This document shows, in pieces, positions 2,231 through 26,283 of a stretch of DNA of 38,308 nt (its first letter is position 1; the number at the start of each line of letters is the position of its first letter). Origin of the DNA: Candidatus Sulfotelmatobacter sp. (GTDB lineage: Bacteria; Acidobacteriota; Terriglobia; Terriglobales; Acidobacteriaceae). Below the pieces are notes generated by a model, which saw nothing but the letters and a program-made list of their open reading frames with translations, did no database searches and had not been told where the DNA came from. Both the position numbers and the translations under genes were made by a program. Location: contig JASHNX010000221.1 in assembly GCA_030041415.1 (NCBI GenBank), positions 1 through 38,308 on the forward strand. The letters run 5' to 3'.

Positions 2231-4090
2231 TCATTCCGTCAGCAATGTTCTGGCCTCCCATAACTCAGGAAAGAATTTCTTATCGAGAGTCAGCTTCAAA
2301 TACGACGCTCCTGCGCTGCCGCCGGTTCCCATGCGAGTACCAATGATGCGTTCGACCAGCTGAATGTGGCGTAGCCGCCAGCTCACGATTAGTTCGTCAA
2401 ACTCCGTCAGCCGTTCACATACGTCGATCCAGTCGCGATGGTGATTCTCATCTTTATATAGCTCGTGAACCGCGCGGGCACGGGCCTGAAAAGTTTTGTT
2501 CTCATTTTCGGCATCAGCCGGCGGCACTTTACTGATCGCCTGCAAAGCAGCGAAAAAAACGTCGTGCAGTGATGGCTCCTCGAGTCTTCGCCTCAGCCGC
2601 TCGTAGGCCTCCGGCGTTGGCCGATGATAGCGAAGCATTTTTTCGTCCTTCAAGCCGCATAAGAATTCGATCTCTCGAAACTGTTCTGACTGGAAACCGC
2701 TGGCTGGCTCCAGCAATCCGCGAAACGCAAGAAAGTGCGTTGGCAGCATGGTTTCGAGAATGGTGAACTGCTCAACGAGAACTCGCGTGATCTCAGTACA
2801 GCGGCGGAGCAATCGCGCGGCCTCGTAGACTTCGTCATGCGATCCGGGCGCCACGGCGGCTCGCTTTAGGTTCGCGACTACCGCGTCGAGATCGTGCAAA
2901 AGCTCCTTGAACCACAATTCGTACGTCTGGTGCACGATGATGAACAGCATCTCATCGTGATGCTCGGGCAAAGACTGCGGGCATTGCAGTTCCAGCAATT
3001 CCGGAACCTTGAGATACGAACTATAGGTCAATTGCCCAGCCGCGGGCACGGACAGCGACGAAGCGGCTTGCGGCTGATTCGGCACGTGGTTCGGTTCCGC
3101 GGGAAATCCTAAAAATCGTTGTGCATTCCTCCCAAGAAGTGCCGACTTCACATGTTGCAGGATCGCGCTTTTACGAATCAGCGAGCCGACCCGTTCCTCG
3201 CCGAGCGGAAACGGATAATCCGATCCCAGCATCACTCGATCTTTCCCCATGGTTTGCAGGAGAAAATTGAGCGTGTGCTCGTCAAATACGGCCGAGTCGA
3301 CGGAAAAGCGATTGAGGTAATGGCTTGGTGGATACTCGCAGTCGCCCCGCGCAACGGGATGATGGTGCCATGCGTTTTCCAGGCGGCCGAGCAAAAACGC
3401 AAAGCTGCCGCCGCCGTGCGCGAAACAAATACGCAGCGTAGGCGGCAAGCGATCGAAAGCGCCGCTGAGTATCAGGGCAACTACCGAAAGCTGCGTTTCT
3501 GCCGGCATGCCAACCGTCCACGGCATCATGTACTTTGGCATGCGGTCGCGACCAAACATTTCCCAGGGGTGGACCAGCACGGCCGCGCCTTCCTCGGCGC
3601 AGTGATGAAGAAAAGTCACGATGCCGGTATCGTCGAGGTTCTTCTCGCCGACATGGTTGCCGATCTGCACGCCAAGGTGGCCGCCCTTCATACAGCGGCT
3701 CAGCTCCTTGCAAGCGGCATCCGTATCCTGAAGCGGCACCTGGCAGAACGATTTCAACCGGCCTTTGCCTCGGCTGCACAGTTCGAGCGCCGCATCGTTG
3801 AACAACCGCGCGCAATCCAGCGCGTGTTCAACAGGGCGGTTGTATGCAAACAAAACAGGAGTTGCCGAGATCAATTGCAGATCAATTCCATCGCGATCCA
3901 TTTCCTGAATCCGCACTTCCGGATCCCAGCACGCCGAGTAAATGTGGCGAAAAAATCGATCTCCCACCATAATGTCGGCTTTTCCGGGCTCGGTATGTTT
4001 GATCCACGGCCAGTCCGGCGAGCCGTAGCGCGCGGCGAGATCCGGCCAGGATTCGGGAAAAAAGTGATTATGAATATCAATGACCTGCAT
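2231..4090 (-). CDS. Fused ACMS decarboxylase - tryptophan 2,3-dioxygenase
   Basis: One open frame of 619 codons joins two kynurenine-pathway enzymes. Residues 1 to about 335 are 2-amino-3-carboxymuconate-6-semialdehyde decarboxylase of the amidohydrolase-2 family: HNH (His7, His9), His174, catalytic His225 in FAHGGG and Asp291 in GSDYPFPLGE match the spacing of the zinc site in the Pseudomonas enzyme. Residues about 354-619 are a complete haem tryptophan 2,3-dioxygenase: LTYSSYLK, the substrate-site His387 in VHQTYELWFKEL, the axial haem ligand His575 in WRLRHIQLVERIIG, then GTGGSAG and the family C-terminus. A linker of about 20 Pro/Ala/Ser-rich residues (about 333-353) joins them with no stop or frameshift. 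The first enzyme of the pathway is thus tied to a late one. The start lies 3 bases after the dioxygenase stop upstream, which suggests coupled translation. The assignment of both halves is firm; whether the protein stays intact in the cell is unknown. Confidence 0.93.
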   Translation of the reverse strand: MQVIDIHNHFFPESWPDLAARYGSPDWPWIKHTEPGKADIMVGDRFFRHIYSACWDPEVRIQEMDRDGIDLQLISATPVLFAYNRPVEHALDCARLFNDAALELCSRGKGRLKSFCQVPLQDTDAACKELSRCMKGGHLGVQIGNHVGEKNLDDTGIVTFLHHCAEEGAAVLVHPWEMFGRDRMPKYMMPWTVGMPAETQLSVVALILSGAFDRLPPTLRICFAHGGGSFAFLLGRLENAWHHHPVARGDCEYPPSHYLNRFSVDSAVFDEHTLNFLLQTMGKDRVMLGSDYPFPLGEERVGSLIRKSAILQHVKSALLGRNAQRFLGFPAEPNHVPNQPQAASSLSVPAAGQLTYSSYLKVPELLELQCPQSLPEHHDEMLFIIVHQTYELWFKELLHDLDAVVANLKRAAVAPGSHDEVYEAARLLRRCTEITRVLVEQFTILETMLPTHFLAFRGLLEPASGFQSEQFREIEFLCGLKDEKMLRYHRPTPEAYERLRRRLEEPSLHDVFFAALQAISKVPPADAENENKTFQARARAVHELYKDENHHRDWIDVCERLTEFDELIVSWRLRHIQLVERIIGTRMGTGGSAGASYLKLTLDKKFFPELWEARTLLTE

Positions 4091-4093
4091 ATT

Positions 4094-5051
<958 letters not shown>

Positions 5052-5064
5052 CTCGTGAATCCGT

Positions 5065-6519
5065 TTACAGCCGAATGCAGATGTTATTCAGTTCGGAATA
5101 GAAGTTCAACGAATGAACGCCGCCTTCGCGGCCAATGCCAGAGAGTCCGACTCCGCCGAAGGGCGTTCGCAAGTCGCGCAGGAACCAGCAATTGACCCAG
5201 GTAATGCCGGCACTCATTTGTTGCGCGACGCGATGGCCACGTTTCAGATCATTTGTCCAGACCGAAGCTGCGAGTCCATATTTTGTTTCGTTGGCCATTG
5301 CGACCGCTTCTTCCTCCCAATCAAACGGAGCGACGTGGCAAACCGGGCCGAAGATTTCTTCTTTCACGCACCGCGCCGACTCCAAAAGCCCGGTATAGAT
5401 CGTCGGTTGCACATAAAACCCGTTGTCGCGAGCATCGCCAAACTCCGGGATTTCTCCTCCGGCGACAAGCGTAGCGCCTTCTTCTTTGGCCAGCTGAAAA
5501 TAAGAAAGAACTTTCTCGCGGTGCTGGGCCGAAATCAGCGGACCAAAATCAGTCGTGGCATCGGTCGGCCATCCTAAGTTGAGGCTTTCCGCTTTTTTCT
5601 TCAGAGCCTCGAGGAAGCGGTCGAAAATTTTGCGTTCCACATATACTCGTTCGGCGCAGAGACAAACTTGGCCGGTATTCAGAAAGACCGCTTCGGACAA
5701 CCCATTCGCGGTTTGTTCGAAATCGCAGTCGGCAAAAACGATCGCGGCGTTCTTTCCGCCAAGCTCAAACGAGACTGGCTTCACGTTGGATGCCGCGGCC
5801 TTCATGATCGCGGCGCCAGTCTTGGATTCTCCCGTAAACGTGATGGCGTTTACATCCGGATGCCGCGTAAGGAATTCTCCTGCCGAGTCAGGTCCGAAGC
5901 CGTGCACCACGTTGTAAACGCCCTTGGGAATCTCGGCCTCTTGCATAACCTCGGCCAGCAATGTCGCGGTTGCGGGCGTCTCTTCGGAGGGTTTGACCAC
6001 AGCAGTATTGCCGCAAGCCAGCGCGGACGCAACTTTCCACGTCAGCAGCAGCAACGGCAAATTCCACGGCGTAATGACGCCGACGACGCCCAATGGTTTG
6101 CGAATCGCATAATTTAAGGCATTGACGCCATCGGGGGTTTGCGTTTGAAAAGCTTCTAACCCAGAGACTTTAATGAGATCGGCGAAGACGCGAAAATTAG
6201 CGGCTGCGCGTGGCACATCTAGCTTCGAAGCAAGGGAAATCGGCTTGCCGGTATCGGCAACTTCGGCTTGAACTAAACAGTCGAAACGCCTTTCAATCGC
6301 GTCAGCAACTTTGTACAACCGCTGCGCCCGCTCACGAACCGAGAGATGTCCCCACTCTGCTGCTAGGGCGCGGCGGGCAGCTTGAACGGCTTCATCGACT
6401 TGCCTGGCGTCAGCTTCGGCGACGTGTGCAATGACGGTTCCATCAGCGGGATTTACATCTGCGAATTGGCGGATGCCGGGAGCGAAACAGCCGTCAATGT
6501 AGTTCAGAATTTGCTTCAC
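5065..6519 (-). CDS. 2-aminomuconate-6-semialdehyde dehydrogenase
   Basis: This 484-residue NAD-dependent aldehyde dehydrogenase (AmnC/NbaE, ALDH8-like) oxidises 2-aminomuconate semialdehyde to 2-aminomuconate after ACMS decarboxylation. The catalytic Cys286 in NTGQVCLC and the general base Glu252 in FELGGKN are 34 residues apart, as in the Pseudomonas enzyme (Cys302, Glu268). Asn153 in PWNLP and Arg104 in LDVPRAA line up with Asn169 and Arg120 there; the arginine grips the substrate carboxylate and favours this substrate over simple aldehydes. 2-hydroxymuconate semialdehyde is the main alternative substrate. The start codon is a GTG. This is the first gene of the kynurenine operon, so the promoter should lie in the 132 bases before it. 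Confidence 0.92.
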
Positions 6520-12048: not shown

Positions 12049-13107
12049 ATGTCGAGCAACGGATTTCATTCATCGCGTTCACACAATCTGAGGTCGCTGT
12101 TCAGCTTATTCTCAAGCGACCTCGCGATCGATCTCGGTACGGCCAATACTTTGGTCTATGCGCGAGGCAAGGGCATAGTCGTCAACGAGCCTTCCATTGT
12201 CGCCATCAATAAGAATACGGGCGAAGTCGAAGCTGTCGGCAAAGAAGCGAAAGAGATGCTCGGTCGGACGCCGGGCAATATTGTCGCCATCAAGCCAATG
12301 AAAGATGGAGTGATCGCCGACTTCAAAGTCACCGAGAAGATGCTCAATTATTTCATTCAGAAAGCCCACAACCGGAAGATGCTGGTGCACCCGCGAATCG
12401 TGATCGGAGTGCCTTCCGAGATCACGCAGGTCGAGAAGCGGGCGGTTATGGACTCTGCCTATCGCGCGAAAGCGAGCGAAGTGCACCTCGTGGAGCAAGC
12501 CATGGTCGCGGCAATCGGCGCGGGGTTGCCAATTACCGAGCCGAGCGGGAACATGGTCGTGGATATCGGTGGAGGAACGACTGACATCGCGGTGATTTCG
12601 CTAAGTGGCATCGTATATTCGCGTTCGGTACGGATGGCGGGCAATCAGATGGATGAAGCCATCATGAATTATCTGAAGCGCAAATATAACCTGCTGATCG
12701 GCGAGCGCACCGCCGAGCAGATCAAAATGGAGATCGGCTCCGCTCATCAACTCGACAAGCCCATGACCATGGAAATTAAAGGGCGCAACCTAATTGAAGG
12801 AGTTCCAAAGACCATCACAGTCGACGACGGCGAGATACGCGAGTCCTTGAGCGAGTGCGTGTCGACCATCATGAATGCGATCCGCGTGGCTCTGGAGCGC
12901 ACGCCACCGGAGCTTTCGGCGGACATCAGTGATCGGGGCATTGTACTCACCGGCGGCGGCGCGCTGCTGAAGAATCTGGATAAACGCATTCGCGAAGAGA
13001 CCGGGCTTCCAGTCTCGATTGCCGACGACCCGTTGTGCAGCGTGGTGCTGGGCACGGGCAAAATGCTCTCGGACTTCAAGCTGCTGCGAAAGATATCGAT
13101 CGAATAG
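12049..13107 (+). CDS. mreB: Rod shape-determining actin MreB
   Basis: This is bacterial actin, which forms membrane-bound filaments that steer lateral wall synthesis in rod-shaped cells. The 352-residue protein has the nucleotide-binding signatures: DLAIDLGTANTLVYARGKG near residues 24-42, VVDIGGGTTDIAVISLSG at about 168-185 and GIVLTGGGALLKNLD near 300. About 20 Ser/Phe-rich residues precede the conserved start; RSLFSLFSSDLAIDLG fits a short membrane-touching helix. It opens the classic mreBCD-mrdA-rodA order. A GGAAGG-type ribosome site precedes the ATG. Confidence 0.97.
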   Translation: MSSNGFHSSRSHNLRSLFSLFSSDLAIDLGTANTLVYARGKGIVVNEPSIVAINKNTGEVEAVGKEAKEMLGRTPGNIVAIKPMKDGVIADFKVTEKMLNYFIQKAHNRKMLVHPRIVIGVPSEITQVEKRAVMDSAYRAKASEVHLVEQAMVAAIGAGLPITEPSGNMVVDIGGGTTDIAVISLSGIVYSRSVRMAGNQMDEAIMNYLKRKYNLLIGERTAEQIKMEIGSAHQLDKPMTMEIKGRNLIEGVPKTITVDDGEIRESLSECVSTIMNAIRVALERTPPELSADISDRGIVLTGGGALLKNLDKRIREETGLPVSIADDPLCSVVLGTGKMLSDFKLLRKISIE

Positions 13108-13111
13108 CTGC

Positions 13112-13173
13112 GAGTCCTGAGCCCCGAGTCGCGAGCACAGGAACTCGGGACTCACAACTCGGGACTCGGGACT
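13112..13173. repeat. Direct and inverted CTCGGGACT repeats between mreB and mreC
   Basis: The 70-base gap is built from copies of one short word. AACTCGGGACT occurs at 13142-13152 and 13156-13166, with a further CGGGACT at 13167-13173. The left arm 13113-13129 is the reverse complement of 13157-13173 at 15 of 17 positions, so the RNA can fold into a long hairpin that ends five bases before the mreC ATG. No Shine-Dalgarno sequence is seen in front of mreC. It could act on expression or be a dispersed genomic repeat. Confidence 0.6.
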
Positions 13174-13177
13174 AGTT

Positions 13178-14458
13178 ATGGAATCCGTACTCGGCCGTCA
13201 TCGCAACCTGATCATCTTCCTCGGTGTGCTCTTCCTGCAGGCACTGGGATTGGCGGTGCAGGTTAAACGGGGCGGTCCCGATGAACAGGATACCCGGCTG
13301 ATTCGAATCTGGGCCGTCGATGCCATCACCCCCTTCGAGCGCGCCCTCATTCGCGTTCAAAACGGCGCGAGCGGTATTTGGCAGGAATATTTTTTCCTGC
13401 GGGGCGTACGCGCCGAGAACCGCAGGCTCAATGAGCAGATTGAGCAGATGCGGCTCGATCAGGTTCGTCTGAGCGAAGATGCAGGCCAGGCGCGGCGGCT
13501 GCAGCAATTACTCGCCTTCAAAGAACAGGTCATTGCCAGGACCGTGCCGGCTCAAGTCATCGGCTCCAGTGGCAGCGATCTTTCCAAGTCCATTTACATC
13601 GATAAGGGATCGGACGATGGAGTAGCCCAGGATATGCCGGTCATTACCGCAAGCGGCGTTGTCGGCAAAGTTTTGCGTGTATATCCTTCGACCTCCTTGG
13701 TCCTTTTAATCAACGATCAGAGCAGCGGGGTCGGCGCTCTTCTGGACAAGTCACGGCTCCAGGGTGTCGTGCACGGAACGCCGAATGGGGAACTGATGCT
13801 CGAACACATCATGAGCGATGAAAAAGTCGCCCCCGGCGAAACTGTATTAAGCAGTGGGGGCGATCAGATTTTCCCGAAAGGGTTTCCCATCGGGACGGTC
13901 ACACACGTCAGCCCGGGAAGAGAGATGTTTTTGAACATCAAAGTAAAACCCGCGGCGGATCTCAACCGGCTAGAAGAAGTCCTGGTTATCACCGCGAAAG
14001 AAGAACGTGAATCGGTGGCAGGAAACGGTGGCCGCATGCGAGCGGCGGATATTTTGGCGCAGCGTTTGCCTTCCGTTCCGGATAAACCTCTGACTGCTTC
14101 GACGCCTGGCGCAAATCCGGCGGGCGCCAAACCACAAACTGGCTTGCAAGCGAAGACCTCGTCGAAGCCGATCACGGGGAATACAAACATGACAGCCGGG
14201 GCCTCGCCGGCGGGTACTGCGAAAACAGCAAGCCCGGCCGCGGTGAACGCCAATGCCGACCCTCAGTCACCCCACATCAACATGGCGAACAGACCGGAGC
14301 GAGTGGCCGTTTCCGGTGATACCGCAGCGAAAAGCAAGGCTCCTGCCGAAAACGGTTTGAGTCCTCAAGTTTCTCTCGAGCCAGACGCCACCCCCGCGAA
14401 ACCCCTGAATCCGCCTTCGGCTCCTCAACCTGCACCGAGCGAAGACACTCCCCACTAG
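13178..14458 (+). CDS. mreC: Rod shape-determining protein MreC with long disordered tail
   Basis: MreC is a periplasmic scaffold, anchored by one N-terminal helix, that links MreB to PBP2-RodA and activates them. Here the helix is at about residues 10-27. A coiled coil follows (about 70-115, AENRRLNEQIEQMRLDQVRL), then the double beta-barrel domain (about 120-275) with IDKGSDDGVAQDMPVIT, VGKVLRVYPSTSLVLLIND and FPKGFPIGTVTHVSPG. The last 140 or so residues are rich in Ala, Pro, Thr and Lys and look disordered, making the protein longer than the roughly 280-370 residues usual for the family. mreD starts one base after its stop. Confidence 0.95.
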   Translation: MESVLGRHRNLIIFLGVLFLQALGLAVQVKRGGPDEQDTRLIRIWAVDAITPFERALIRVQNGASGIWQEYFFLRGVRAENRRLNEQIEQMRLDQVRLSEDAGQARRLQQLLAFKEQVIARTVPAQVIGSSGSDLSKSIYIDKGSDDGVAQDMPVITASGVVGKVLRVYPSTSLVLLINDQSSGVGALLDKSRLQGVVHGTPNGELMLEHIMSDEKVAPGETVLSSGGDQIFPKGFPIGTVTHVSPGREMFLNIKVKPAADLNRLEEVLVITAKEERESVAGNGGRMRAADILAQRLPSVPDKPLTASTPGANPAGAKPQTGLQAKTSSKPITGNTNMTAGASPAGTAKTASPAAVNANADPQSPHINMANRPERVAVSGDTAAKSKAPAENGLSPQVSLEPDATPAKPLNPPSAPQPAPSEDTPH

Positions 14459-14459
14459 C

Positions 14460-14978
14460 GTGCCCATCACCTACACATCGGGCGAGCAGATCGAGGTTTA
14501 CCGGTTCAGCATACCAGTCACCATCGGCGTTCCGCTGCTGGCGCTCTTCCTGCAAGCGTTTTTGCCGCGCCGCCTGCCGTTTTTCTCGATTTTCGATTTG
14601 CCATTGCTGGTGACGATTTTTTTCGCCATGGCACGCCGCAATCCAATCACCGGATTGTTCACGGGGGCCGGGATTGGGCTGGTGCAGGACATGCTGGGCG
14701 CCTATCCCATAGGAATCTTCGGCATCGCCAAGACGGTGGTCGGTTATGGCGCGTCGTCGCTTGGAGCGAAGCTTGATGTGGAGAATGCCGGTGCGCGCTT
14801 TCTGGTTACCCTTGGTTTCTATCTGGTTCACCAGGCGGTTTATTTCGCGGTTGCTCGCGGCATGGTGAACTTGACGATGAACTGGAGCTGGAGCCGTGGC
14901 ATCGTGGCCGGATTGGCCAATGCATTCTTGGGAGTCGGGTTGTACTTTGTACTGGATAAATTCAAGCAGAGAGCGTAA
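14460..14978 (+). CDS. mreD: Rod shape-determining protein MreD
   Basis: A 172-residue polytopic membrane protein with about five hydrophobic helices, the expected size for MreD, the small partner of MreC in the elongation complex. FFAMARRNPITGLFTGAGIGLVQDMLG matches the most conserved part of the family (RNP near one helix and the G-x-x-x-G-x-x-QD motif). The GTG start follows the mreC stop by one base and has no clear ribosome site, so coupled translation is likely. Confidence 0.92.
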   Translation: MPITYTSGEQIEVYRFSIPVTIGVPLLALFLQAFLPRRLPFFSIFDLPLLVTIFFAMARRNPITGLFTGAGIGLVQDMLGAYPIGIFGIAKTVVGYGASSLGAKLDVENAGARFLVTLGFYLVHQAVYFAVARGMVNLTMNWSWSRGIVAGLANAFLGVGLYFVLDKFKQRA

Positions 14979-15187
14979 AGCTACCGACTGGTTGTCGCCC
15001 TGCAGGGTTCGGCCCCAATTCAAACTCGAACTATTGGTTGCGCTCTGCCTGTGACTTAGGTTTTGCTTCGACCTTCGCGCCATACTCGGTCGGGGCTAGA
15101 ATAAGGAAACCGCACAAATCTCAAGAATCTCTGTCCACTTTGCTGTTACCGCAAAAACGGGAACTGAGACGTGTGAACTGACAACTG

Positions 15188-17158
15188 ATGCTCGGCCGTG
15201 ACGACAAAGTTTCGGAATTCCGCCTGACGGCAGCGCAATACATGATCCTGGCCATTTTCCTTGTACTGGCGTATGGGTTGTGGCGGCTGCAGGTCATGGA
15301 GAGCAATCTCTACGCCACGCTGGCGGAAAAGAACCGTATCCGAAATGTGCCGATCCTGGCTCCGCGCGGGAAGATTCTTGACCGCGAGGGTCGTACCATC
15401 GTCGACAATTACCCTTCGTTTTCCGCCCTCCTTTTGCGCGACACCCCGCATGACCTTAACGCCGACTCCGACTTGATCGCGCAAGGGCTGCATCTCGATC
15501 CTGACGACTTGCGGACACGTATCCGGACTTTCGCGTCGATGCCGCAGTACCAGCCGATTTTTTTGAAGGAAGACATCACGCCTGACGAGTTGGCCTTCAT
15601 CGATTCTCACCGTAACGAACTGCCGGAACTCGACACGATTGTGGCACATCGCAGGCTTTATCCGCGCAATGGGTTCATGGCGCATCTGATCGGCTACGTC
15701 GGGGAAGTCACGGAAGACATGCTGAACCAGCCGCAATTCGAGTTGTACAACCCCGGTGATGTTGTGGGAATTTCCGGCGTGGAACGGCAATACAACAACT
15801 TGCTGATAGGAACAAACGGCGCGCGCCGGGAACTGGTCAACAGCCATGGCCGAGAGGTCGGCCTTTTGGATGAAACCGATGCGATTCCCGGAAAACCATT
15901 GAAGCTCACCGTCGACATCGATCTCCAGATTGCTGCGGAAGAGGCGATGGAGGGCAAGAACGGCGCCATCATTGCCATGGATCCGCATACCGGCGAGATT
16001 CTTGCCATGGTCAGCGGACCCACGTTTGATCCCAATGATTTCTCGGTCCACATTTCGCGCGGGGAGTGGAACAAGCTGGTGGACGATCCCGACAAGCCAC
16101 TGCTTAACAAAGCGATTCAGGCACAATTGGCGCCCGGTTCGACTTTTAAGGTCGTTATGTCGGTTGCCGGATGGCAGGAAGGGATCGCACAGAGCCTTCG
16201 CGTTCACTGCAACGGCAGTGCCGATTTTTACGGCAGAAACTATAAGTGTTGGGTCTATTTCCTGCACCAGTCGCACGGCGATGTCGACCTTGAGAAAGCC
16301 ATTTATCAGTCCTGCGACGTATTCTTCTACACTCTCGCTGACCGCTTGGGAATTGAGCGCATCGCCAAGTATGCGAGCCTGCTCGGCTTGGGGCAGAAGA
16401 CTGGCATCGATCTGCCGAACGAAGTCAGCGGTGTAATGCCCTCGGAGGAGTGGAAGCTGCGCAACTTCCATCAGAAATGGTTTGCGGGAGAAACGATTTC
16501 GGTTGGGATCGGCCAGGGAGCAATCACAGTCACTCCTGTACAGTTGATCCGTGCCATCTCTGCCATATCCATGGGCGGCCGGATGGTTGTGCCGCATGTG
16601 GTCAATCCCTCTGGCTTGCCGCCCGGACTTTTGCAAACCGCCAATTACACCGAAGTAAAGAACATTCCGATCGATCCGGAGGGATGGAATTACATTACGG
16701 ACGCGATGGTGAAAGTTCTTCAACCGGGAGGCACGGCGCCGTCGGCGGGAGTCCCGGGCATAGAGATCGCGGGGAAGACAGGCTCAGCCCAGGTAGTCTC
16801 GCTGGCCCTACGCGCCAAGGCAAAGAACGAATCGGATTTTGCGCAGAACGGATGGTTTGTTGGTTTTACGCCACGCCGTAATCCCGACGTTGTGGTATGT
16901 GCCTTGTTCCAGGGCGGTGAGCACGGAAAATTAGCGGCGCGACTCGCTACCCAGGTGATTCAGGCTTACGTGGAAAAACAGCGCCGCTCGCCGCAAAAGG
17001 TGGCGCGAATATCGAAGCCGGAGAAGGTTGAGGTTGGGGCTCTGTGGAGCGAACCCGATCCCGACGGCAACAATTCGAAGCTGCAAATGGGAAGATTTGT
17101 TGTTGATCTTGCAAAGAAACCGCTCCCTCTGGCGATTGCTGCGCCGGGCGTGGAGTAG
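15188..17158 (+). CDS. mrdA: Penicillin-binding protein 2 (elongation transpeptidase)
   Basis: This class B penicillin-binding protein cross-links peptidoglycan during elongation in complex with RodA. The 656 residues include an N-terminal membrane helix (about 15-33), the pedestal region beginning RGKILDREGRTIVDN (60-74), and a transpeptidase domain. The active-site motifs are all present: Ser318-Thr-Phe-Lys321, Ser375-Cys-Asp377 (the SxN-type motif, as SCD in PBP2 proteins) and Lys530-Thr-Gly. The C-terminal 50 residues extend past the domain and are charged. A 209-base gap follows mreD, larger than other gaps in the cluster; the leader has no obvious Shine-Dalgarno and shows short AACTGA-type repeats just before the ATG. 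Confidence 0.96.
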   Translation: MLGRDDKVSEFRLTAAQYMILAIFLVLAYGLWRLQVMESNLYATLAEKNRIRNVPILAPRGKILDREGRTIVDNYPSFSALLLRDTPHDLNADSDLIAQGLHLDPDDLRTRIRTFASMPQYQPIFLKEDITPDELAFIDSHRNELPELDTIVAHRRLYPRNGFMAHLIGYVGEVTEDMLNQPQFELYNPGDVVGISGVERQYNNLLIGTNGARRELVNSHGREVGLLDETDAIPGKPLKLTVDIDLQIAAEEAMEGKNGAIIAMDPHTGEILAMVSGPTFDPNDFSVHISRGEWNKLVDDPDKPLLNKAIQAQLAPGSTFKVVMSVAGWQEGIAQSLRVHCNGSADFYGRNYKCWVYFLHQSHGDVDLEKAIYQSCDVFFYTLADRLGIERIAKYASLLGLGQKTGIDLPNEVSGVMPSEEWKLRNFHQKWFAGETISVGIGQGAITVTPVQLIRAISAISMGGRMVVPHVVNPSGLPPGLLQTANYTEVKNIPIDPEGWNYITDAMVKVLQPGGTAPSAGVPGIEIAGKTGSAQVVSLALRAKAKNESDFAQNGWFVGFTPRRNPDVVVCALFQGGEHGKLAARLATQVIQAYVEKQRRSPQKVARISKPEKVEVGALWSEPDPDGNNSKLQMGRFVVDLAKKPLPLAIAAPGVE

Positions 17159-17200
17159 AGTTCCGCTAACTTAGAACTGACAGCCGGGAACCGATTACTG

Positions 17201-18298
17201 ATGTCTCGCTATGTTTCATTTCGCGATTTCGACTGGCTGCTGCTGGTCTTTGTGCTCATGATTTGCGCTCTGGGCGTGATGGAGATCCAGAGCGCCACCG
17301 CGCACACAAAGTTCGCAGGGGCGAACGTGAAGCAGATGTATTGGGTCGTAGCAGGAATCGGATTGATGTTCCTCATGAGCATGGTGAGCTACCATGCCCT
17401 GCTCGATAAGATCCAGTGGTTTTATATTGCGGCGATCGCTTCGCTGATGGCCGTTCTGGTGTTTGGGACGAAGGCTTTGGGCGCGAAACGCTGGATCAAA
17501 ATACCTGGTGGAAACCACTTCCAGCCATCTGAGTGGGTAAAGCTGATCCTTATCCTCGCTGTCGCCAAATATTTCGCCGACATGCGGCAGCGGGAGCTTT
17601 CATGGTCTGACCTGCTCAAAGCCGGCGCGATCGTCGTTGTGCCGATGCTCATGGTTTTAAAGCAGCCGGATTTAGGCACCGCTCTTACCTACCTGCCTAT
17701 CGCTGCAATGGGGATCTTTCTCGGCGGCTTGCAATGGAAACAGGGGGTTATCATCGCCTTGCTGGCCACAATCGGTGTGGGGGCGGTATTTTTTATTCCA
17801 CGGGTTCATGTGCTGAAGTCTTATCAAAAGCAGCGGTTGACCAGCTTTGTCGATCCCGATCTCGACCCTCAGGGTTCGGGGTACCAAGTTGAGCAATCGC
17901 TGATCGCTGTGGGTTCCGGAGGACTGTGGGGCGGCAAAGGCTCGCAAACACACGGCGCTTTCTTACCGGTGCCGCAAACCGACTTCATCTTTGCGGCTTT
18001 TGCCGAAGAACACGGATTTGTCGGCGCTTTGGGGCTTCTGCTGTTATACTTCATAGTGCTGATGCGTTTGACCCAGAACGCACAAACAGCGCCCGACCGC
18101 GCTGGGACGTTCGTGGTGATGGGTGTGGTGGCTGTTCTCAGCTTTCATATCCTGGTCAACGTCGGTATGGTGGTCGGCTTCATGCCGGTCACTGGAATAC
18201 CTTTGCCGCTAATGAGTTACGGCGGGTCTTCCGTGCTTTTCATGTTTCTGGCGCTGGGGATGGTGATGAACGTCCGGATGCGCCGCTTTGTGAATTAA
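17201..18298 (+). CDS. rodA: SEDS peptidoglycan polymerase RodA
   Basis: RodA polymerises glycan strands from lipid II and works with PBP2 encoded just upstream (43-base gap). The 365-residue protein has about ten membrane helices and the SEDS signatures LKQPDLGTAL at about 148-157, the outside loop SGYQVEQSLIAVGSGGLWGKG-like segment with FLPVPQTDFIFAAFAEEHGF at about 253-272, and GIPLPLMSYGGSS near the end, which separates RodA/FtsW from other membrane proteins. Pairing with MrdA and MreBCD points to RodA rather than FtsW. Confidence 0.95.
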   Translation: MSRYVSFRDFDWLLLVFVLMICALGVMEIQSATAHTKFAGANVKQMYWVVAGIGLMFLMSMVSYHALLDKIQWFYIAAIASLMAVLVFGTKALGAKRWIKIPGGNHFQPSEWVKLILILAVAKYFADMRQRELSWSDLLKAGAIVVVPMLMVLKQPDLGTALTYLPIAAMGIFLGGLQWKQGVIIALLATIGVGAVFFIPRVHVLKSYQKQRLTSFVDPDLDPQGSGYQVEQSLIAVGSGGLWGGKGSQTHGAFLPVPQTDFIFAAFAEEHGFVGALGLLLLYFIVLMRLTQNAQTAPDRAGTFVVMGVVAVLSFHILVNVGMVVGFMPVTGIPLPLMSYGGSSVLFMFLALGMVMNVRMRRFVN

Positions 18299-18731
18299 CC
18301 GGCTGGGCCGACGATCCAGGAACGTTCAGAACGTAGTTCGGGGTTTTCTGAACTGCTAGAGTAGTTGCAAGTGAGTAATTGCCGCGCCGCGGGCGCGGCC
18401 CCAAAAATATCGATCGCTCTCGCGTGAAGAGAGCATTTCACCGGTCATTTCGAGCAGTGGAAGGCCGGGCAGGATTGAAGTACAAAGCGCCGCTGGCAGG
18501 GAAACGGCCCCCTCATACCGGAAACGGTTTCGAGAGTGCGGTCACAAACCGGCGGGCGAAAAGCGAAAAGTGCAAAAGATATCCAAGCTTGTGCAGCGGA
18601 TTCGGCCTAGGAATATTATTCTGAGCCTTAACCGTCCCTCGTCCAGGGTCTTTGTCGCGTCACTCGATCCTCCAGCTTTCCTCTTTTCGATCCGGTGAAC
18701 ACCTGCTGATCGCAGCAGGACCGGAGTATGC
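18299..18731. other. 433-base gap before rng with nested inverted repeats
   Basis: No convincing gene lies here. ACGTTC-A-GAACGT (18322-18334) is a perfect 13-base palindrome, and GTTCAGAA (18324-18331) also pairs with TTCTGAAC (18346-18353), so two exclusive foldings share one arm. No T-run follows, arguing against a plain terminator. The rest is GC-rich and structured-looking. The stretch may be a long leader of the RNase gene; E. coli RNase E controls its own level through its leader, but no matching element can be recognised here. Confidence 0.4.
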
Positions 18732-21467
18732 ATGAATAAAGAGTTGTTTGTTTCTTCCACGCCTCACGAGACCAAAGTGGGGCTGGTGGAAGATGATCTG
18801 CTCGCGGAGATCTACCTCGAGCGCGAAAATGAATACACCCTGGCAGGGTCCATCTATAAGGGTCGCGTGACCCGGGTTTTGCCTGGAATGCAGTCGGCAT
18901 TTGTCGACATCGGCCTCGAACGCGATGCTTTCCTTTACGTCTCCGATTTTATGGAACTCGAGGAGCATGACGAGGACGTAACGGACGTTATTCCGGCGAA
19001 TCGAGCCGTACCGGATTTGCGGCCGCAACCAGCCACTATTGCCGAATCGTCCGGTTCAGAAGTTCACCCCTCTTCTTCTGGCGCCGAACCAGAGTCGGAA
19101 CTGAAAAGCGATTCCGAGGCGAGTTCCAATCAGACCGAAGATGTCGAGGTTCAAACGCGAACCCCGGCATCGGAGGGCTTCACTTCTGAACCACAAGAGC
19201 GAGAGCGCGGCTGGCGTGGACGCCGCCGTCGTCGCGGTGGGCGACGTGACGGACGAGGCGAAGGACGGGATCGAGGGTTCGATTCACGTTCGACTCGGCC
19301 TATGGGCGAGACGAGTCCTTCTTCTCCCTCATTCCGCGCGCCGGAATCGGGGAGATCGCAGTTTGGGCCGCCGGCAGGCTATCAGCCAATTCTCCTTCCC
19401 GGTGAATCCATTTCAAAATATCGCGGAATGTCCTCGTCGATTCCCTCCGCTCAGCCCCAAACCGGTCAGGAACCGAGTATTGGTTCTCCGAATGAGATAA
19501 CGAGAGAATCGGTGGGCCCGGTGGCGTCGGCTTTTCCGGAAGACGAGCCCATCTTCGCGAATCCCGCTGTTGAGGCTAGCGAGACCGAGGCAGGGAAATC
19601 GCATTTCAGCGTGGGACAGATCGCACAACCTGCCGCAATTGAGACATCGACATCCATCGATTGGACTCAGGAAGTTTCGGATTCAGCCCCGGCTGGGGTG
19701 GTCGAATTCGCAGACGAGCGGCAGCCGCAGGAGTCGATTGACCGTGGGCTCGTCGAGATTGAACAAGACACCGCGCCAGCCTCATCCAGCATTCCGGAAT
19801 TTGCCGCCCCGGGAACGCTTGAGGAAGAAACCATCGAAGAGGATGAAGTCGACGCGGTGCGGTACGAGGGAGCCTCCGACGAAGGCTATGAAGAATTCGA
19901 AGAAGAGACGCGCGCCGCTGGGGACGATTCAAGCGGCGGGCTGGTGATCCCCGAGGTCCGCGAGACCGTAGCTGAAATTCACATGTCGTCTTTGGCCGAG
20001 TCGGAATCTGCGACGGCCGGGGGCGTCGAACCGGAGGGGGAAGACGACTCGGAAGAATATGAATTGGAAGAAGCTCAAGCGGAAGCGGAGGCCCTGCTGG
20101 ATGCGGAAGCGCGAGGCAACGGTACGGTCGATGCTCGCGCGGAAGTACGAGCTTCGTCAGGGACCGCAGGTTACACACAACGAGCTCCCCGTCCGCGGCC
20201 GGCTTATGAGCGCCGCGGTGGACGCCGTGGCGGACGGCGTTTCCCTCGCCGTCAATCACAGGAAGTTCCCAAGATCAGCGATTTGCTGAAAGAGGGCCAG
20301 GAGATTCTGGTCCAGATTGCCAAGGAGCCGATCGGGAAAAAGGGCGCGCGCATCACCAGCCATATCGCGTTGCCCGGACGTTTCCTTGTGTATATGCCAA
20401 CCGTGAATCACACCGGCGTTTCACGCAAGATCGCGTCCGATGAAGAGCGGCAGCGGCTAAAGAGAATCGTGATGAGCGAGCGGGAAAACGGCCACGGAGG
20501 TTTCATCGTCCGCACGGCAGCGCAGAATGCCAGCGAAGACGAACTGCGCGCCGATATCCGCTTTCTCAAAGGCTTGTGGAATGACATCAAGACACGGGCG
20601 GAAAATTCGAAGCCGCCGGCCCTGATTTACCACGACCTGAACGTCGTGGAGCGGGTTTTGCGCGACCAGGTCACTTCCGACTTTTCCGTGATCTGGGTCG
20701 ATACCGAACCGGAGTATGAGCGCATTCTGCGTTTCTTCAACCGTTTTCAGCCCGGGCTGGTGAAGCGAGTGAAGCTCTACACCAAAGAAACGCCATTGTT
20801 CGAACAATTCGGCCTGGCCGATGAAATGAACAAGGCCTTGAAGTCGAAAGTTTGGTTGAAGAGCGGTGGTTACATCGTGATCAATCAGACCGAAGCGCTG
20901 GTGGCGATCGACATCAACACTGGCAAGTACGTCGGTAAGACTGCGCGTCTGGAAGATACCATCGTCAAGACCAACGTAGACGCAGTCAAGGAAATCGTGC
21001 GGCAGATCCGGCTGCGCGATTTGGGCGGGATCATCATCATTGATTTCATCGACATGGACGAGCGCCGCAATCGCCAGCGCGTGATGCAGGCGCTCGAAGA
21101 AGAACTGCGCCACGACCGTGCACCATCAAAGGTGCTTCAGTTCAACGATTTCGGCCTGGTCGCGATTACCCGCAAGCGCGTAAAGCAGTCGCTTGAGCGC
21201 ACCATTGGCGCGCCCTGTCCCTATTGCCAGTCCACCGGATACGTGAAATCGGTGACCACAGTCTGCAACGAGATTTACGTAGAGATGCGCAAGATCGCGA
21301 AGCATCTCGAGCACGAAGATGTCATGCTGCGCGTGAATCCCGATGTGGCCAAAGAATTGAAGGGCAACAATGCGCGTTTGCTGAATGAAATGGAAGAACT
21401 CACCAAGCGGACGATCATTGTGAAGAGCGATCCGGCGCTGCACCAGGAGCAGTTCGACATCAACTAG
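18732..21467 (+). CDS. rng: Ribonuclease E/G with a large insertion in the S1 domain
   Basis: A 911-residue endoribonuclease of the RNase E/G family, which processes rRNA and starts mRNA decay. Residues 1-78 hold the family start and the first half of the S1 domain (GSIYKGRVTRVLPGMQSAFVDIG). The second half resumes at about 515 (KEGQEILVQIAKEPIGKKGARIT). Between lie some 430 low-complexity residues, acidic and Ser/Pro/Glu-rich, with Arg/Gly blocks at 161-181 (RGRRRRRGGRRDG) and 484-507 (RRGGRRGGRRF). The catalytic domain is intact: Asp727 in AIDINTGKYVG and Asp771 in IIIDFIDMDERR match E. coli Asp303 and Asp346, and CPYC at 829-832 is the zinc link. No C-terminal degradosome tail is present. 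rng also follows mre genes in E. coli. Confidence 0.94.
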   Translation: MNKELFVSSTPHETKVGLVEDDLLAEIYLERENEYTLAGSIYKGRVTRVLPGMQSAFVDIGLERDAFLYVSDFMELEEHDEDVTDVIPANRAVPDLRPQPATIAESSGSEVHPSSSGAEPESELKSDSEASSNQTEDVEVQTRTPASEGFTSEPQERERGWRGRRRRRGGRRDGRGEGRDRGFDSRSTRPMGETSPSSPSFRAPESGRSQFGPPAGYQPILLPGESISKYRGMSSSIPSAQPQTGQEPSIGSPNEITRESVGPVASAFPEDEPIFANPAVEASETEAGKSHFSVGQIAQPAAIETSTSIDWTQEVSDSAPAGVVEFADERQPQESIDRGLVEIEQDTAPASSSIPEFAAPGTLEEETIEEDEVDAVRYEGASDEGYEEFEEETRAAGDDSSGGLVIPEVRETVAEIHMSSLAESESATAGGVEPEGEDDSEEYELEEAQAEAEALLDAEARGNGTVDARAEVRASSGTAGYTQRAPRPRPAYERRGGRRGGRRFPRRQSQEVPKISDLLKEGQEILVQIAKEPIGKKGARITSHIALPGRFLVYMPTVNHTGVSRKIASDEERQRLKRIVMSERENGHGGFIVRTAAQNASEDELRADIRFLKGLWNDIKTRAENSKPPALIYHDLNVVERVLRDQVTSDFSVIWVDTEPEYERILRFFNRFQPGLVKRVKLYTKETPLFEQFGLADEMNKALKSKVWLKSGGYIVINQTEALVAIDINTGKYVGKTARLEDTIVKTNVDAVKEIVRQIRLRDLGGIIIIDFIDMDERRNRQRVMQALEEELRHDRAPSKVLQFNDFGLVAITRKRVKQSLERTIGAPCPYCQSTGYVKSVTTVCNEIYVEMRKIAKHLEHEDVMLRVNPDVAKELKGNNARLLNEMEELTKRTIIVKSDPALHQEQFDIN

Positions 21468-21579: not shown

Positions 21580-23379
21580 CTACTGCCGTGCCGAACCGCT
21601 CGCCGGCAGTAATGTGGCAGCGAGCACCACCACGTGAGAGTTATCCGGCAGAAGAAGGCTCTGCACGACCTTGGCTGGATTAAGCACAAACTGATAGGCG
21701 TACAGATTGAACGTACGATCATCTTCGGTCCCGTTGTCAAAATTCCGGTAAGCCATGGCTACGCCTTCATATTCATGCGGATAGTTTGCGGGCGTATACC
21801 AGTCGCTAAAGCTCTGGACAAATTTCGAACTCGTTCCATCTGTGTAGTTCACGGTTAGAGTCTGTGACGCTTGATCTCCCTCCACGCCGGTTGCCAAAAG
21901 CATTAGACCGGAAAATTTTCCTTGCGGCAGAGAAACCAACTGCCCGCTGCATCCCACCGCATCCAGATCATTCTCCGGTCCAAACTTGAACAGGATGCCG
22001 TTATAAACTCGCGATGGAGTAAGCAGGTTCGCCGAATACGAATAGCCGTCGCCGTCCAGGCCGCCGGTCGTATACGTTGTGCCGTCTTTGTAGATTCCGT
22101 AAAGACTAAACTCCGAGGAGAGATCTACCTGCGTGCCTGTTCCGGTTGAACCGGCAGCGGCGCTGACGGCGAGATTGAGGTTAACGCTTTCGACCAAGTT
22201 GCCGGATGTGCCGGTCACAGTCACAGTTGTCTGTCCCGTGCTAGCGGAAGACACGGCCTCAAACGTCACTTTCCGTTGATTGCCCTGCCCCTGCACTCTT
22301 GCCTTCACACCTTTTGGCAAGCTCGACAGCGTCAGATTCACCACGCCATTGAACCCATTCACAGGTGTGATCGTGATCGCCGCAATTGCGCTTGAGCTTT
22401 GATTCAGAAAAACGCTGCTCGGCCCGGAGAGAGTGAAACCAGTTCCTCCCACTGCAGTGTTAATTGCATTGGCGTATTGCGCCGCGAGGCCGGTGCCGAC
22501 GAAGTCGTCATAGATCCACATGAAGCCGCCAATGATGTCGCATTGGTCATGCCAGCCGGTCATAATGCTTTGCACCTGCGCCGGAGCGTCAACCTGGTCC
22601 CACAGCCCAGGAAATACTGGAACGGCGCCGAAATTCCATCCTTCGCAGGGATTATTGCCGGCGCCGCCCGCATACGCCTGCAGGTGGACCCCATCGACCG
22701 TCCCCGGAAGTTGCGCATTGATTTGGGCCACCACATTTGTCCAGTAACTGTTGTTATCGAAGGCATCCGGCATCACGTGATAGCCCAGCTGGCCGAGCAT
22801 CACGCCAAATGCAATCGTGGTGGGCGAATTGAAGCTGTTCTCATCGTCGAAGTCGATGGCGTCCAAAGCCGGGATGGCGGCCTTCAGAGCGACAAAATCC
22901 TGATACAGGATGCTGCTTGGTCCAGTTCCCTGCGCTTCAACCAGCGAGGTAATGTCTTCCCAGTCTCCGTAGTTAGAGGAGCCGATGCTGAAGGTGACTC
23001 GCTTCACCGTCCCTTGCTCTAATTGCGCCATGTCGGCTGGAAAGTCAGGATAGTACTGGTTGCCTACGTAAACACCGCCAGAGGTCAGTGGAAATTCTCC
23101 ATTAAAGTTCAGGTCACCTGTGCTGCTGACCTCGATGCTCCAGACAATGGCCTCAGTGAAACCAGAGTTCTCGATCTCGGTGATGTTCGCTGATGCATTC
23201 TTGTAAAACGGTCCGCCGCCGAAAATTCCCGTGTAGCCGGTCTGGCCTGATGCCTGAATCGAGAAGTTTAAAATCGCGAATAAGAGAATTAGAAATAACA
23301 AAAGTAGATTTGTTCTGCCGCGGCCGAATGCTGCGCGGTGAAAAGACTGCGCCGACTGCACCTTTATCGAATCCCTCAC
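21580..23379 (-). CDS. Secreted GH18-like glycosidase with Ig-like and C-terminal beta domains
   Basis: A 599-residue exported protein: a hydrophobic signal segment at about 24-45 follows a basic N-terminus. Residues about 48-320 look like a glycoside hydrolase 18-type barrel. ALDAIDFDDENSF carries Asp173, Asp176, Asp178 and Glu180, the DxxDxDxE acid pattern of chitinase-like enzymes, though the usual Gly before the second Asp is Ala. A middle domain (about 325-410) resembles an Ig-like/NEW3 module, and the last 180 residues form another beta-rich domain. Substrate is unknown; a non-hydrolytic carbohydrate binder is possible. The GTG start follows AGGAG with good spacing. Transcription converges on rng at the shared terminator. 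Confidence 0.6.
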   Translation of the reverse strand: MRDSIKVQSAQSFHRAAFGRGRTNLLLLFLILLFAILNFSIQASGQTGYTGIFGGGPFYKNASANITEIENSGFTEAIVWSIEVSSTGDLNFNGEFPLTSGGVYVGNQYYPDFPADMAQLEQGTVKRVTFSIGSSNYGDWEDITSLVEAQGTGPSSILYQDFVALKAAIPALDAIDFDDENSFNSPTTIAFGVMLGQLGYHVMPDAFDNNSYWTNVVAQINAQLPGTVDGVHLQAYAGGAGNNPCEGWNFGAVPVFPGLWDQVDAPAQVQSIMTGWHDQCDIIGGFMWIYDDFVGTGLAAQYANAINTAVGGTGFTLSGPSSVFLNQSSSAIAAITITPVNGFNGVVNLTLSSLPKGVKARVQGQGNQRKVTFEAVSSASTGQTTVTVTGTSGNLVESVNLNLAVSAAAGSTGTGTQVDLSSEFSLYGIYKDGTTYTTGGLDGDGYSYSANLLTPSRVYNGILFKFGPENDLDAVGCSGQLVSLPQGKFSGLMLLATGVEGDQASQTLTVNYTDGTSSKFVQSFSDWYTPANYPHEYEGVAMAYRNFDNGTEDDRTFNLYAYQFVLNPAKVVQSLLLPDNSHVVVLAATLLPASGSARQ

Positions 23380-23577: not shown

Positions 23578-25080
23578 TTAGCTGCCGGGATGCGCCAAAG
23601 TCTTAACGGCTACATCGGACCGGCTACGCAATTTTTTGATAGTCTCGTGAATGGCCTTGGAGGACGAGGCATCGCCTTTTTCTGCCGCCTTGGCCACGCT
23701 TCCCGCCTCCTCGGTTGTCGTGCTGGAAATATCGAGCAGGACGACGAGCGCATCGGCATGAAGCTTCCACAGTGATGACATGCTCTGGCTGCGCTTGATC
23801 TCTTCTAATTCAGTGTTAATGCGGGCGATGCAGGAGACCGAACGAATCAATGTGCGGGCGACATCGGCGCGCAAGCTCTTTTCCTCCAGGAAGGTCGCAT
23901 TGTAGGCGTCTGCTTCCGCCGGGCTCAGCATTAGATTAAAGAAGCGCATGGGCACAATCTGGCGGTATTTGGGATCGGCGACGCGAACAAAAACCCGGAT
24001 GGACTCTTCGACACGGCGCAACTTTCCCTCCTCGGCCGATATTTGTTGAGCGGTGATGACCGGCGGCTGGAACGTCTGAGCCGCTACCGGAGCTTTCGTG
24101 GCGGCAATCCGTGCCGGCTTTGCCGCGGCCGTCGACCGGTTCGATGCTGCAGTGGCGCTCCTCGCAGCCGGAGCCAGCAGCGATTTGCGAATCGGCGGAC
24201 GGCGGTCCAGTTCTTTTTTCAGTCGCGAAACGCGTCGGAATTTTTCGAGCGCATTGTTGTAATCGGCCTTGAGCATCTCGTGTTCCTCAATGGCGGCCAC
24301 GTGCTCAACCGTGACCTCGACGCCATCGACGGTGCTCAGAATGCTGCCGCCCATCTCATCGAGCGCCTGTGCGAATTGCTTGATCTCTCCCAGGGCTTTG
24401 GCGAAGAGTTGGTCAAAGCGCTGCCCGAAGGCGGCGTTGTGCGCAGCCACTGTGGCCAGCACTCCGGGGTGATAAAACGAAGAATCCAGCCAGCGCTTGA
24501 TCTCACGAACGCGTGAAACGATTCCGGAATCCATCAGCGCATTGAAGTCGCGGTAGCGGGTGATTTCTTCCCGCAGCGGATCAAAATTCCGCAGCAACTG
24601 CACGTGTTCCTCCGGGAGCTGAGGAACATCCGTATCGGCTAGAATCTCGATCAGCGCGATTTCGAAAGGCGAAAGAGGTAGCGCGCCATCTAATCCATAG
24701 CCATGTTGTTCCCACTGGCCGGAAACGCGTGGGTGTCGATAAAGAAAAGTCGCGATCAGATCGGTCTTATCCCGGTTGATCTCACTCGACTCGCGCCGGC
24801 GGACGAAATATCGCAGCAAGGCTTCCGCGACTTCTGAGTCAGTTTCTGGAGTGAGCGCTTGCCGCAACATCGCGGGAGTAATCGCCATATCCAGCACATG
24901 CAGCCAGCGATACATGCGGGAAAGAGTTTCGGGAAGGCCATTGTCCGATTGGCGAAGCGAGGCCTCATCCAATCCGCTCGGGATGGGCACGTCGCCGCCG
25001 AGCGAATCGCGCATCAGCTTCTGGTAAAAACCCTGGACGGTCGCCAGGATTGAAAGCTCAAATTTAAGGTCCTCGGCCAA
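23578..25080 (-). CDS. Uncharacterised 500-residue helical protein
   Basis: I do not recognise this family. The protein is mostly alpha-helical and charged, with no signal peptide or membrane helix. An N-terminal part (residues 1 to about 300) has several Leu-rich helices and ends in a likely coiled region around HEMLKADYNNALEKFRRV. A linker very rich in Ala, Lys, Pro and Thr (about 300-343) leads to a C-terminal helical part (345-500) with two further amphipathic helices. The start is a TTG preceded by GGGAG at six bases. Neighbours on the same strand are a lipoprotein upstream and the secreted GH18-like gene downstream, giving no firm clue. A cytosolic structural or regulatory role is only a guess. 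Confidence 0.6.
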   Translation of the reverse strand: MAEDLKFELSILATVQGFYQKLMRDSLGGDVPIPSGLDEASLRQSDNGLPETLSRMYRWLHVLDMAITPAMLRQALTPETDSEVAEALLRYFVRRRESSEINRDKTDLIATFLYRHPRVSGQWEQHGYGLDGALPLSPFEIALIEILADTDVPQLPEEHVQLLRNFDPLREEITRYRDFNALMDSGIVSRVREIKRWLDSSFYHPGVLATVAAHNAAFGQRFDQLFAKALGEIKQFAQALDEMGGSILSTVDGVEVTVEHVAAIEEHEMLKADYNNALEKFRRVSRLKKELDRRPPIRKSLLAPAARSATAASNRSTAAAKPARIAATKAPVAAQTFQPPVITAQQISAEEGKLRRVEESIRVFVRVADPKYRQIVPMRFFNLMLSPAEADAYNATFLEEKSLRADVARTLIRSVSCIARINTELEEIKRSQSMSSLWKLHADALVVLLDISSTTTEEAGSVAKAAEKGDASSSKAIHETIKKLRSRSDVAVKTLAHPGS

Positions 25081-25796: not shown

Positions 25797-26280
25797 GAAT
25801 ATATTTTTCCTGAGCTTATAGCTCCGATGCAGCGATTCGTTGGGAAAGATGTCTGCAGCAAGACTACCTAGATTTCGCCTTCTGGGTCAATCGAAGCATT
25901 GGCGCGTGGTGAAGAACGCAGAAATAACAAAGATTCCCGCGATTTATCGCACTTTTTTTCACACTCAAACGCGCGCCGGTGTCCCGCGCGCCATGTTTTT
26001 GGCAAAACCAGTGCTTTCATTCCTTTACAAGGGTTCGGTTCTCTCGCGACGGCCTGTGAATTGCAGCGTTCTGATTGATTTGTGGTCGGTTCGAAACGCT
26101 TTCTCAATGCCGCCAGGAAGTGATACCCTGTCGGGTAACGTTTTTAGGGTCTTTTCCTCTCCCTACGAAAATCCGCAGGTGATTGCCGCCGAGACGCAGC
26201 AATAGTTCAGGACCGCAATCTATCTAATTATGATAAACGTAGTCGACATTACGACCACCATTGTTCAGGAGGATTCGCAC
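25797..26280. other. 484-base divergent gap before sat-cysC
   Basis: The gap separates the lipoprotein gene (minus) from the sulfur module (plus), so it should carry both promoters; none stands out. Two weak hairpins followed by T-runs are seen on the plus strand: GCGATTTATCGC then ACTTTTTTTC (25939-25960), and GCGCGC-N9-GCGCGC then CATGTTTTT (25971-26000). TACCCTGTCGGGTA with ACGTTTTT nearby (about 26124-26146) is a third. Such a series could be leader attenuation, but no known sulfur riboswitch core was recognised. A 121-codon plus-strand frame here lacks a ribosome site and is not called. Confidence 0.3.
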
Positions 26281-26283
26281 GTG
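26267..26283 (+). promoter_or_regulatory. Ribosome binding site that decides the sat-cysC start
   Basis: AGGAGG (26267-26272) lies eight bases before an in-frame GTG at 26281. An ATG 17 codons upstream (26230) has no ribosome site, so the GTG is the preferred start. Confidence 0.7.

Follow-up and report, generated by a model that had tools for sequence, protein, structure and literature searches.

Does the long frame at positions 2231–4090 of this DNA encode a genuine fusion of ACMS decarboxylase (ACMSD) with tryptophan 2,3-dioxygenase (TDO), and what might be gained by joining two enzymes that act at opposite ends of the kynurenine route and are normally separate proteins? The window (the whole stretch analysed, 38,308 nucleotides) comprises positions 1–38,308 of the forward strand of contig JASHNX010000221.1 from Candidatus Sulfotelmatobacter sp. 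(GCA_030041415.1). Its genome, here designated G000, is a draft of 350 contigs rated 95.56% complete.

The ACMSD–TDO gene and its recurrence

The earlier note had described an uninterrupted frame of 619 codons containing two complete enzymes, and this was borne out: a single ATG-started frame encodes 619 amino acids and carries two Pfam domains. The coordinates 2231–4090 also stood, and the strand, previously left unstated, is the minus strand. The plus-strand frame from 2231 contains several stops, and an overlapping plus frame (3119–4138, 339 aa, TTG start) shows no sign of being a gene. Residues 1–330 (3101–4090, minus) form the ACMSD domain, matched by Pfam Amidohydro_2 over residues 4–329 (112.8 bits, cut-off 26.4), with Pseudomonas fluorescens ACMSD as the best solved relative (PDB 2hbv, E 2.5e-117) and a Foldseek match to 4ifk at TMt 0.92. 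Residues 354–619 with the stop codon (2231–3031, minus) form the TDO domain, matched by Pfam Trp_dioxygenase from residue 352 (190.7 bits, gathering cut-off 34.9), with Xanthomonas campestris TDO as the best solved relative (PDB 2nw7, E 1.1e-55) and a Foldseek match to 7p46 at TMt 0.83. The TDO part scored 241.1 bits against the NCBIfam equivalog TIGR03036, below its cut-off of 390.7, and it is therefore assigned as a TDO by family, residues and fold rather than by this equivalog. That one frame should hold two full domain families goes far beyond chance, and the description of enzymes from opposite ends of the kynurenine route joined in a true fusion holds for this gene.

Alignment to 2hbv and 2nw7 showed that all the active-site residues named in the earlier note were correct. 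H7, H9, H174, H225 and D291 of the fusion align with the metal and catalytic residues of 2hbv, which we take to be H9, H11, H177, H228 and D294 in ACMSD numbering. R48 and R236 correspond to R51 and to the neighbouring subunit's R239 of P. fluorescens ACMSD, both named essential in the title of PDB 4ifk, and are identical in 45/45 distinct fusion proteins. In the TDO half, H387 and H575 correspond to H55 and H240 of 2nw7, and H575, H387, R457, S464 and T589 (equivalent to His240, His55, Arg117, Ser124 and Thr254) are likewise identical in 45/45. Of these TDO residues, His240 is presumably the heme ligand and the other four presumably contact the substrate. Altogether, the 17 functional positions checked are identical in all 45 distinct one-frame fusion proteins. 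As judged from these residues and the two folds, the fusion gene is read as encoding a real bifunctional enzyme.

The two domains are joined by a linker of residues 331–353 (3032–3100, minus) that is predicted to be disordered. An AlphaFold2 monomer model built from 52 aligned sequences gave a mean pLDDT of 81.3 and a pTM of 0.55, with residues 333–355 below 50; it supersedes a poor model from 20 rows (mean pLDDT 68.9). The segment 329–353 has 25 residues in the window and between 10 and 54 across the 45 distinct proteins, whose linkers are rich in Ala, Ser, Pro and Glu. Translation of TDO on its own, from a start within the frame, was considered and rejected, as an in-frame ATG occurs in the linker region of only 6 of the 45 proteins and a start preceded by a Shine-Dalgarno-like stretch in only one.

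An assembly or sequencing artefact might be suspected, given that the window's genome is a 350-contig draft. A scan of genome contigs returned 362 relatives of either domain, of which 78 loci were kept; in 43 of these (L001–L042 and L044) both domains are adjacent at an identity of at least 67%. Together with the loci from whole-genome searches, 64 loci carry both domains with an ACMSD at least 60% identical to that of the window; L068, L087 and L092, in which the ACMSD falls below 60% and the two domains lie in separate places, were set aside before this count. The frame is single in 62/64 loci, which represent 45 distinct proteins, some genomes being present in both collections, and it starts with ATG in 64/64. 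A stop or frameshift between the domains was looked for across the loci and none was found. The two loci that are not one frame could be taken to favour an artefact, but in L038 (the same contig and place as L156 of genome G409) a gap of 2 N bases falls within the start of TDO and in L042 an indel lies within ACMSD, and neither case separates the two domains cleanly. The same fusion is found in records of several isolate series, as judged by title, and in the single-contig genome G619, rated 100% complete; domain identity to the window falls to 67% for ACMSD and 71% for TDO, across two families of the class. The check for an assembly error thus failed to show one. There is hardly any chance left for the artefact reading, which is refuted for practical purposes.

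Operon context and origin of the fusion

The fusion lies in a minus-strand operon with the order AMSDH-RidA-HAO-[ACMSD-TDO]-KMO-KynU. AMSDH (2-aminomuconate/2-hydroxymuconate semialdehyde dehydrogenase, 5065–6519) matches TIGR03216 with 859 bits (cut-off 693.25). It is followed by a RidA-family protein (4608–5051, PF01042), a probable 2-aminomuconate deaminase by inferred function, which adjoins HAO here and stands beside HAO in L161, L191 and L192. HAO (3-hydroxyanthranilate 3,4-dioxygenase, 4094–4651, PF06052) matches NF009763 with 265.3 bits (cut-off 220), and its stop codon ends 3 bases upstream of the fusion ATG. KMO (kynurenine 3-monooxygenase, 787–2154, FAD_binding_3) is named by family and context, its best NCBIfam match being VioC with 208.1 bits against a cut-off of 760; it adjoins the fusion in 65 of 66 sequences. 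KynU (kynureninase, 2–775) is cut off by the contig start, matches TIGR01814 over cut-off with 286 bits (G000:C329:2-748) and is 79% identical to the KynU of L007. The window operon thus holds TDO, KMO, KynU and HAO, with KMO assigned by family and context only.

Gene order and strand, as far as the genes were seen, are kept in all 66 sequences with both domains. All seven parts are present in 42/66 (window included), while within the stretch examined KynU is missing from 23/66 and both KMO and KynU from 1/66. A KynB-type formamidase was found over the TIGR03035 cut-off in 0 of the 45 genomes of the window's genus (g1), with weak matches in 26/45.

In two g1 genomes the operon has a different form. 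In G427 (L154, around 4910) AMSDH runs directly into the rear part of KMO. G418 (L153, around 3570) lacks AMSDH, most of KMO and all that lies between them; the final 46 residues of KMO remain, preceded by a sugar-reductase-like frame (its resemblance to L007 was judged by eye). Both look like internal operon deletions, in drafts with 6–7% contamination. Elsewhere in the window, an ATP sulfurylase fused to APS kinase (26230–28029) is followed by a TauE-type exporter (28066–28833), and an ordinary cell-shape cluster with MreB, MreC, PBP, RodA/FtsW and RNase E/G occupies 12049–21467. The long frames at 21580–23379, 23578–25080 and 32551–34332 have no Pfam match at E 1e-5, and their status as genes is uncertain.

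The ACMSD–TDO fusion probably arose once, as judged from the trees. An ACMSD tree with added proteobacterial and actinobacterial rows (30 rows in all, 18 of the 45 fusions and 12 others) placed the fusions in one clade (starred support 95/97), with the free-standing alphaproteobacterial ACMSD of L043 next to it (82/84). In a larger ACMSD tree of 72 rows, L043 lay among the fusions without starred support. The TDO tree, with 94 rows, grouped all 45 fusions with weak support (80), beside the free-standing TDO of the acidobacterial family f71 and with L081–L083 nearest. Some Proteobacteria and Actinomycetota carry a RidA-HAO-ACMSD cassette with a free-standing ACMSD. The simplest reading is a single fusion event in which TDO was added at the 3′ end of such a cassette, with putative sources for both parts.

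Of 396 genomes in a sample of the phylum, 2 gave the fusion as one row, each of them from the window's genus, and many other genomes in it carry ACMSD and TDO as separate genes. A sample of the class gave 12 of 399, or 13 with G662, in which the fusion is cut by a contig end; these belong to genera g1, g213 and g224 of family f1 and to g262 of family f91. Within g1, the fusion was found in 38 of 45 genomes (35 whole, 3 in pieces). A record titled Nevskia soli (L034, BOG_genome_mining) also has the fused operon and falls beside a Bryobacterales MAG within the acidobacterial set; a wrong label or a transfer is the probable cause. Titles and the beginnings of abstracts in the literature yielded no description of the fusion, which is weak evidence of novelty, the coverage of subscription journals being poor.

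These data bear on the possibility that the fusion is nearly neutral: a lost stop codon would have joined two neighbouring genes once, through a flexible linker, and the product would have been inherited with the operon and have no function beyond co-expression. The single origin (one clade at 95/97 with 18 of 45 fusions sampled), the probable descent of the domains from two sources, the variable and disordered linker without a conserved internal start, and the co-expression that the operon would provide anyway are all in keeping with this explanation. However, the single frame persists in 62/64 loci over the wide divergence given above and in two families, and no clean re-split into two genes was seen among the loci examined. 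We regard near-neutrality as unlikely, yet with an appreciable chance of being right.

NAD synthesis genes and the probable fate of ACMS

The known substrate of NadC is quinolinate. In g1 (n = 45), NadA (quinolinate synthase) was found in 0/38 genomes with the fusion compared to 3/7 without it (Fisher p 0.0025, in a test that ignores shared ancestry), and NadC was found in 35/38 fusion genomes (34 over cut-off) and in 40/45 genomes overall. Restricting the count to the 16 g1 fusion genomes with a completeness of 90% or more and a contamination of 5% or less gave NadA in 0/16 and NadC in 16/16. The window's genome itself has NadC (294.4 bits), no NadA, and a NadB match under cut-off (263.5 bits). 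The NadA profile gave a match in 12 of 14 control genomes. Given NadA in none and NadC in 35 of the 38 g1 fusion genomes, tryptophan is most likely the source of quinolinate there, which would make ACMSD the branch enzyme that competes with NAD synthesis.

In the class (n = 399), NadA was found in 342 genomes (334 over cut-off). It is present in 2 of the 13 fusion genomes (a count that includes one truncated fusion) compared to 340 of the 386 others (Fisher p 1.3e-8, again ignoring shared ancestry); the fusion and NadA counts come from two draws of the same size, with the same genomes as far as listed. The two fusion genomes that keep NadA are the single-contig G619 and G720, and therefore the fusion is not tied to NadA loss. 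In g262, where the six fusion genomes were searched again individually, NadA was found in 0/6 fusion genomes compared to 12/12 non-fusion genomes among the matches listed, the latter not being a full count of the genus as genomes without a domain match are not all listed. NadC was found in 2/6 g262 fusion genomes (one below cut-off) compared to 12/12 non-fusion genomes among the same matches, and it was not found in 4/6, including G545 at 95% completeness. The evidence on NAD is therefore weaker in g262 than in g1, and the pattern of NadC present with NadA absent is that of the window's genome but not of every fusion lineage. The nadC and nadA genes are neighbours in each of the 12 non-fusion g262 genomes searched; neither was found in 4/6 fusion genomes.

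That NadC was not found in four of the six g262 fusion genomes suggests that salvage, or simply catabolism, is at work in this genus. Catabolism could even be the whole story: tryptophan would be burned for carbon and nitrogen, ACMSD would remove ACMS, as in the idea of the earlier note, and so prevent wasteful or toxic quinolinate, and NAD would come from salvage. AMSDH and RidA in the operon fit such a unit, as do the relatives of the cassette that lie with 4-oxalocrotonate decarboxylase, dmpE or dmpG, the missing NadC in 4/6 g262 fusion genomes and the retention of NadA in G619 and G720. Against this explanation stand the NadC kept in 35/38 NadA-less fusion genomes of g1 and an absence of NadA that tracks the operon in two genera, and we consider it rather improbable.

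The three g1 genomes with NadA (G420, G427 and G432) have no fusion match, and G396, G417, G418 and G424 have neither the fusion nor NadA. In the NadA tree, the proteins of G427 and G432 group with families f91 and f94 (starred support 99/99), apart from that of G420, which belongs to the family's own type (starred support 100/100). The foreign-type NadA of G427 (L150) and G432 (L166) suggests, on tree position, that the NAD route may have been replaced in these genomes. In G432 (L166), NadA adjoins NadB. A NadB-like match above 410 bits was seen in 25/45 g1 genomes, 22 of them without NadA, and these NadB-like proteins without NadA are possible orphan L-aspartate oxidases.

The argument from NAD, like the association with NadA, attaches to the whole operon. 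As g1 yielded no operon in which TDO and ACMSD are separate genes, this association is not creditable to the fusion as such.

Proposed ratio control at the branch point and known systems

The suggestion that the fusion fixes the ratio of TDO to ACMSD holds, since it must be 1:1 and the fusion is the single match in the window's genome. The further idea that flux entering from tryptophan is always matched by removal of ACMS is not supported: with NadA in 0/38 and NadC in 35/38 g1 fusion genomes, some ACMS most likely must escape to quinolinate for NAD. The fusion would thus set the size of the ACMS leak, not abolish it. Direct channelling from TDO to the ACMSD site was rejected, as the two active sites are separated by four enzymatic steps (formamidase, KMO, KynU and HAO) and no intermediate can be handed over directly.

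The reading we favour, at a little short of an even chance, is that a fixed-ratio ACMSD–TDO serves as a device for robust partitioning at the ACMS branch point. Tryptophan would be oxidised via kynurenine and 3-hydroxyanthranilate to ACMS, most of which the ACMSD half would decarboxylate and which would then be burned, while a small share would cyclise spontaneously to quinolinate; NadC would convert this quinolinate to NAD because there is no quinolinate synthase. TDO would supply the flux and ACMSD would set the level of ACMS. A 1:1 fusion would cancel enzyme abundance, so that the rate of quinolinate formation would depend only on the saturation of TDO with tryptophan for as long as ACMSD is unsaturated. 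In a steady-state model, the flux is J = E kT f(Trp) and the steady level of ACMS is about K r/(1−r), with r = kT f/kA; as the same amount E applies to TDO and ACMSD, E cancels, and the leak to quinolinate is independent of expression while r < 1. With illustrative constants, and with the upstream steps assumed to carry the flux, the model gave a quinolinate CV of 0.000–0.011 for fused enzymes compared to 0.47–10.98 for separate enzymes at r of 0.05–0.8; at r = 1.2 this robustness was lost (fused CV 0.29–0.59). Co-transcription alone would already give a nearly fixed ratio. A more far-reaching version, in which the fusion makes the spontaneous leak to quinolinate, the sole de novo source of NAD left, depend on tryptophan saturation alone, the operon displaced quinolinate synthase and lineages losing the fusion took up a foreign nadA, is a speculative proposal that we hold to be doubtful.

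The tether could also act through oligomerisation. Attachment to the TDO tetramer would hold two ACMSD dimers together, and tetramerisation of TDO might force ACMSD into its active dimer or a higher form at low expression, with ratio control as a by-product. Y356 and Y359, just after the linker and identical in 45/45 proteins, match TDO residues that presumably reach into the neighbouring subunit. ACMSD needs its neighbour's arginine (R236, equivalent to R239 of the neighbouring subunit, 45/45), and PMC10143591 states that the ACMSD monomer is inactive and that the dimer and higher forms are active. Yet free-standing ACMSD occurs in many bacteria, and oligomer scaffolding is judged improbable as the main role of the fusion.

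Ratio control by the fusion would be of interest beyond these bacteria. PMC10143591 calls the steady quinolinate of healthy people despite varying tryptophan perplexing and unexplained, and proposes a transient HAO-ACMSD-AMSDH complex. In the bacterial fusion, the entry enzyme is covalently joined to the branch enzyme in place of a transient complex, and this makes ratio control directly testable by comparing fused with split enzymes. The anti-correlation with NadA suggests switching between two NAD routes within one bacterial class, and the fusion may tie tryptophan use to NAD supply in soil Acidobacteria.

Compared with the solved enzymes, the ACMSD half has the whole fold of P. fluorescens ACMSD (2hbv, 4ifk; TMt 0.92, with the structural match at about 50% identity), including all metal ligands and both substrate arginines; however, that enzyme is free-standing, whereas the fusion carries TDO on the C-terminus of ACMSD. 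The TDO half shares with X. campestris TDO (2nw7, 7p46) the fold (TMt 0.83) and the equivalents of H55, H240, R117, S124, T254, F51, Y24 and Y27. It differs in that the Xanthomonas enzyme is free-standing, its Y113 is a Phe (F453) in the fusion, and its N-terminus is replaced by the linker and ACMSD. The free-standing TDO of f71 (G235, G275 and G291) and of L045 is 72–76% identical to the fused domain but is encoded by frames of 280–286 aa without an ACMSD part, and in L045 (5977–6819) and the short L081–L083 none of the other operon genes lies beside TDO in the stretch examined. Among gene cassettes, that of Mycetohabitans shares the order AMSDH-RidA-HAO-ACMSD with AMSDH first, and those of Rhodococcus and Streptomyces share RidA-HAO-ACMSD; in all three, unlike the window, a free-standing ACMSD closes the series of genes, with no TDO, KMO or KynU in the stretches shown. 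As for NAD synthesis, the part of PMC4217691 consulted cites a kynurenine-to-quinolinate route in Xanthomonadales and Flavobacteriales and includes a single Acidobacteria genome in its list of 91 bacteria that have most of the kynurenine pathway, without mention of a fusion in that part. The system in g1 resembles that route in having TDO, KMO, KynU, HAO and NadC with NadA absent, but here the operon also includes ACMSD, AMSDH and RidA, and ACMSD and TDO form one polypeptide.
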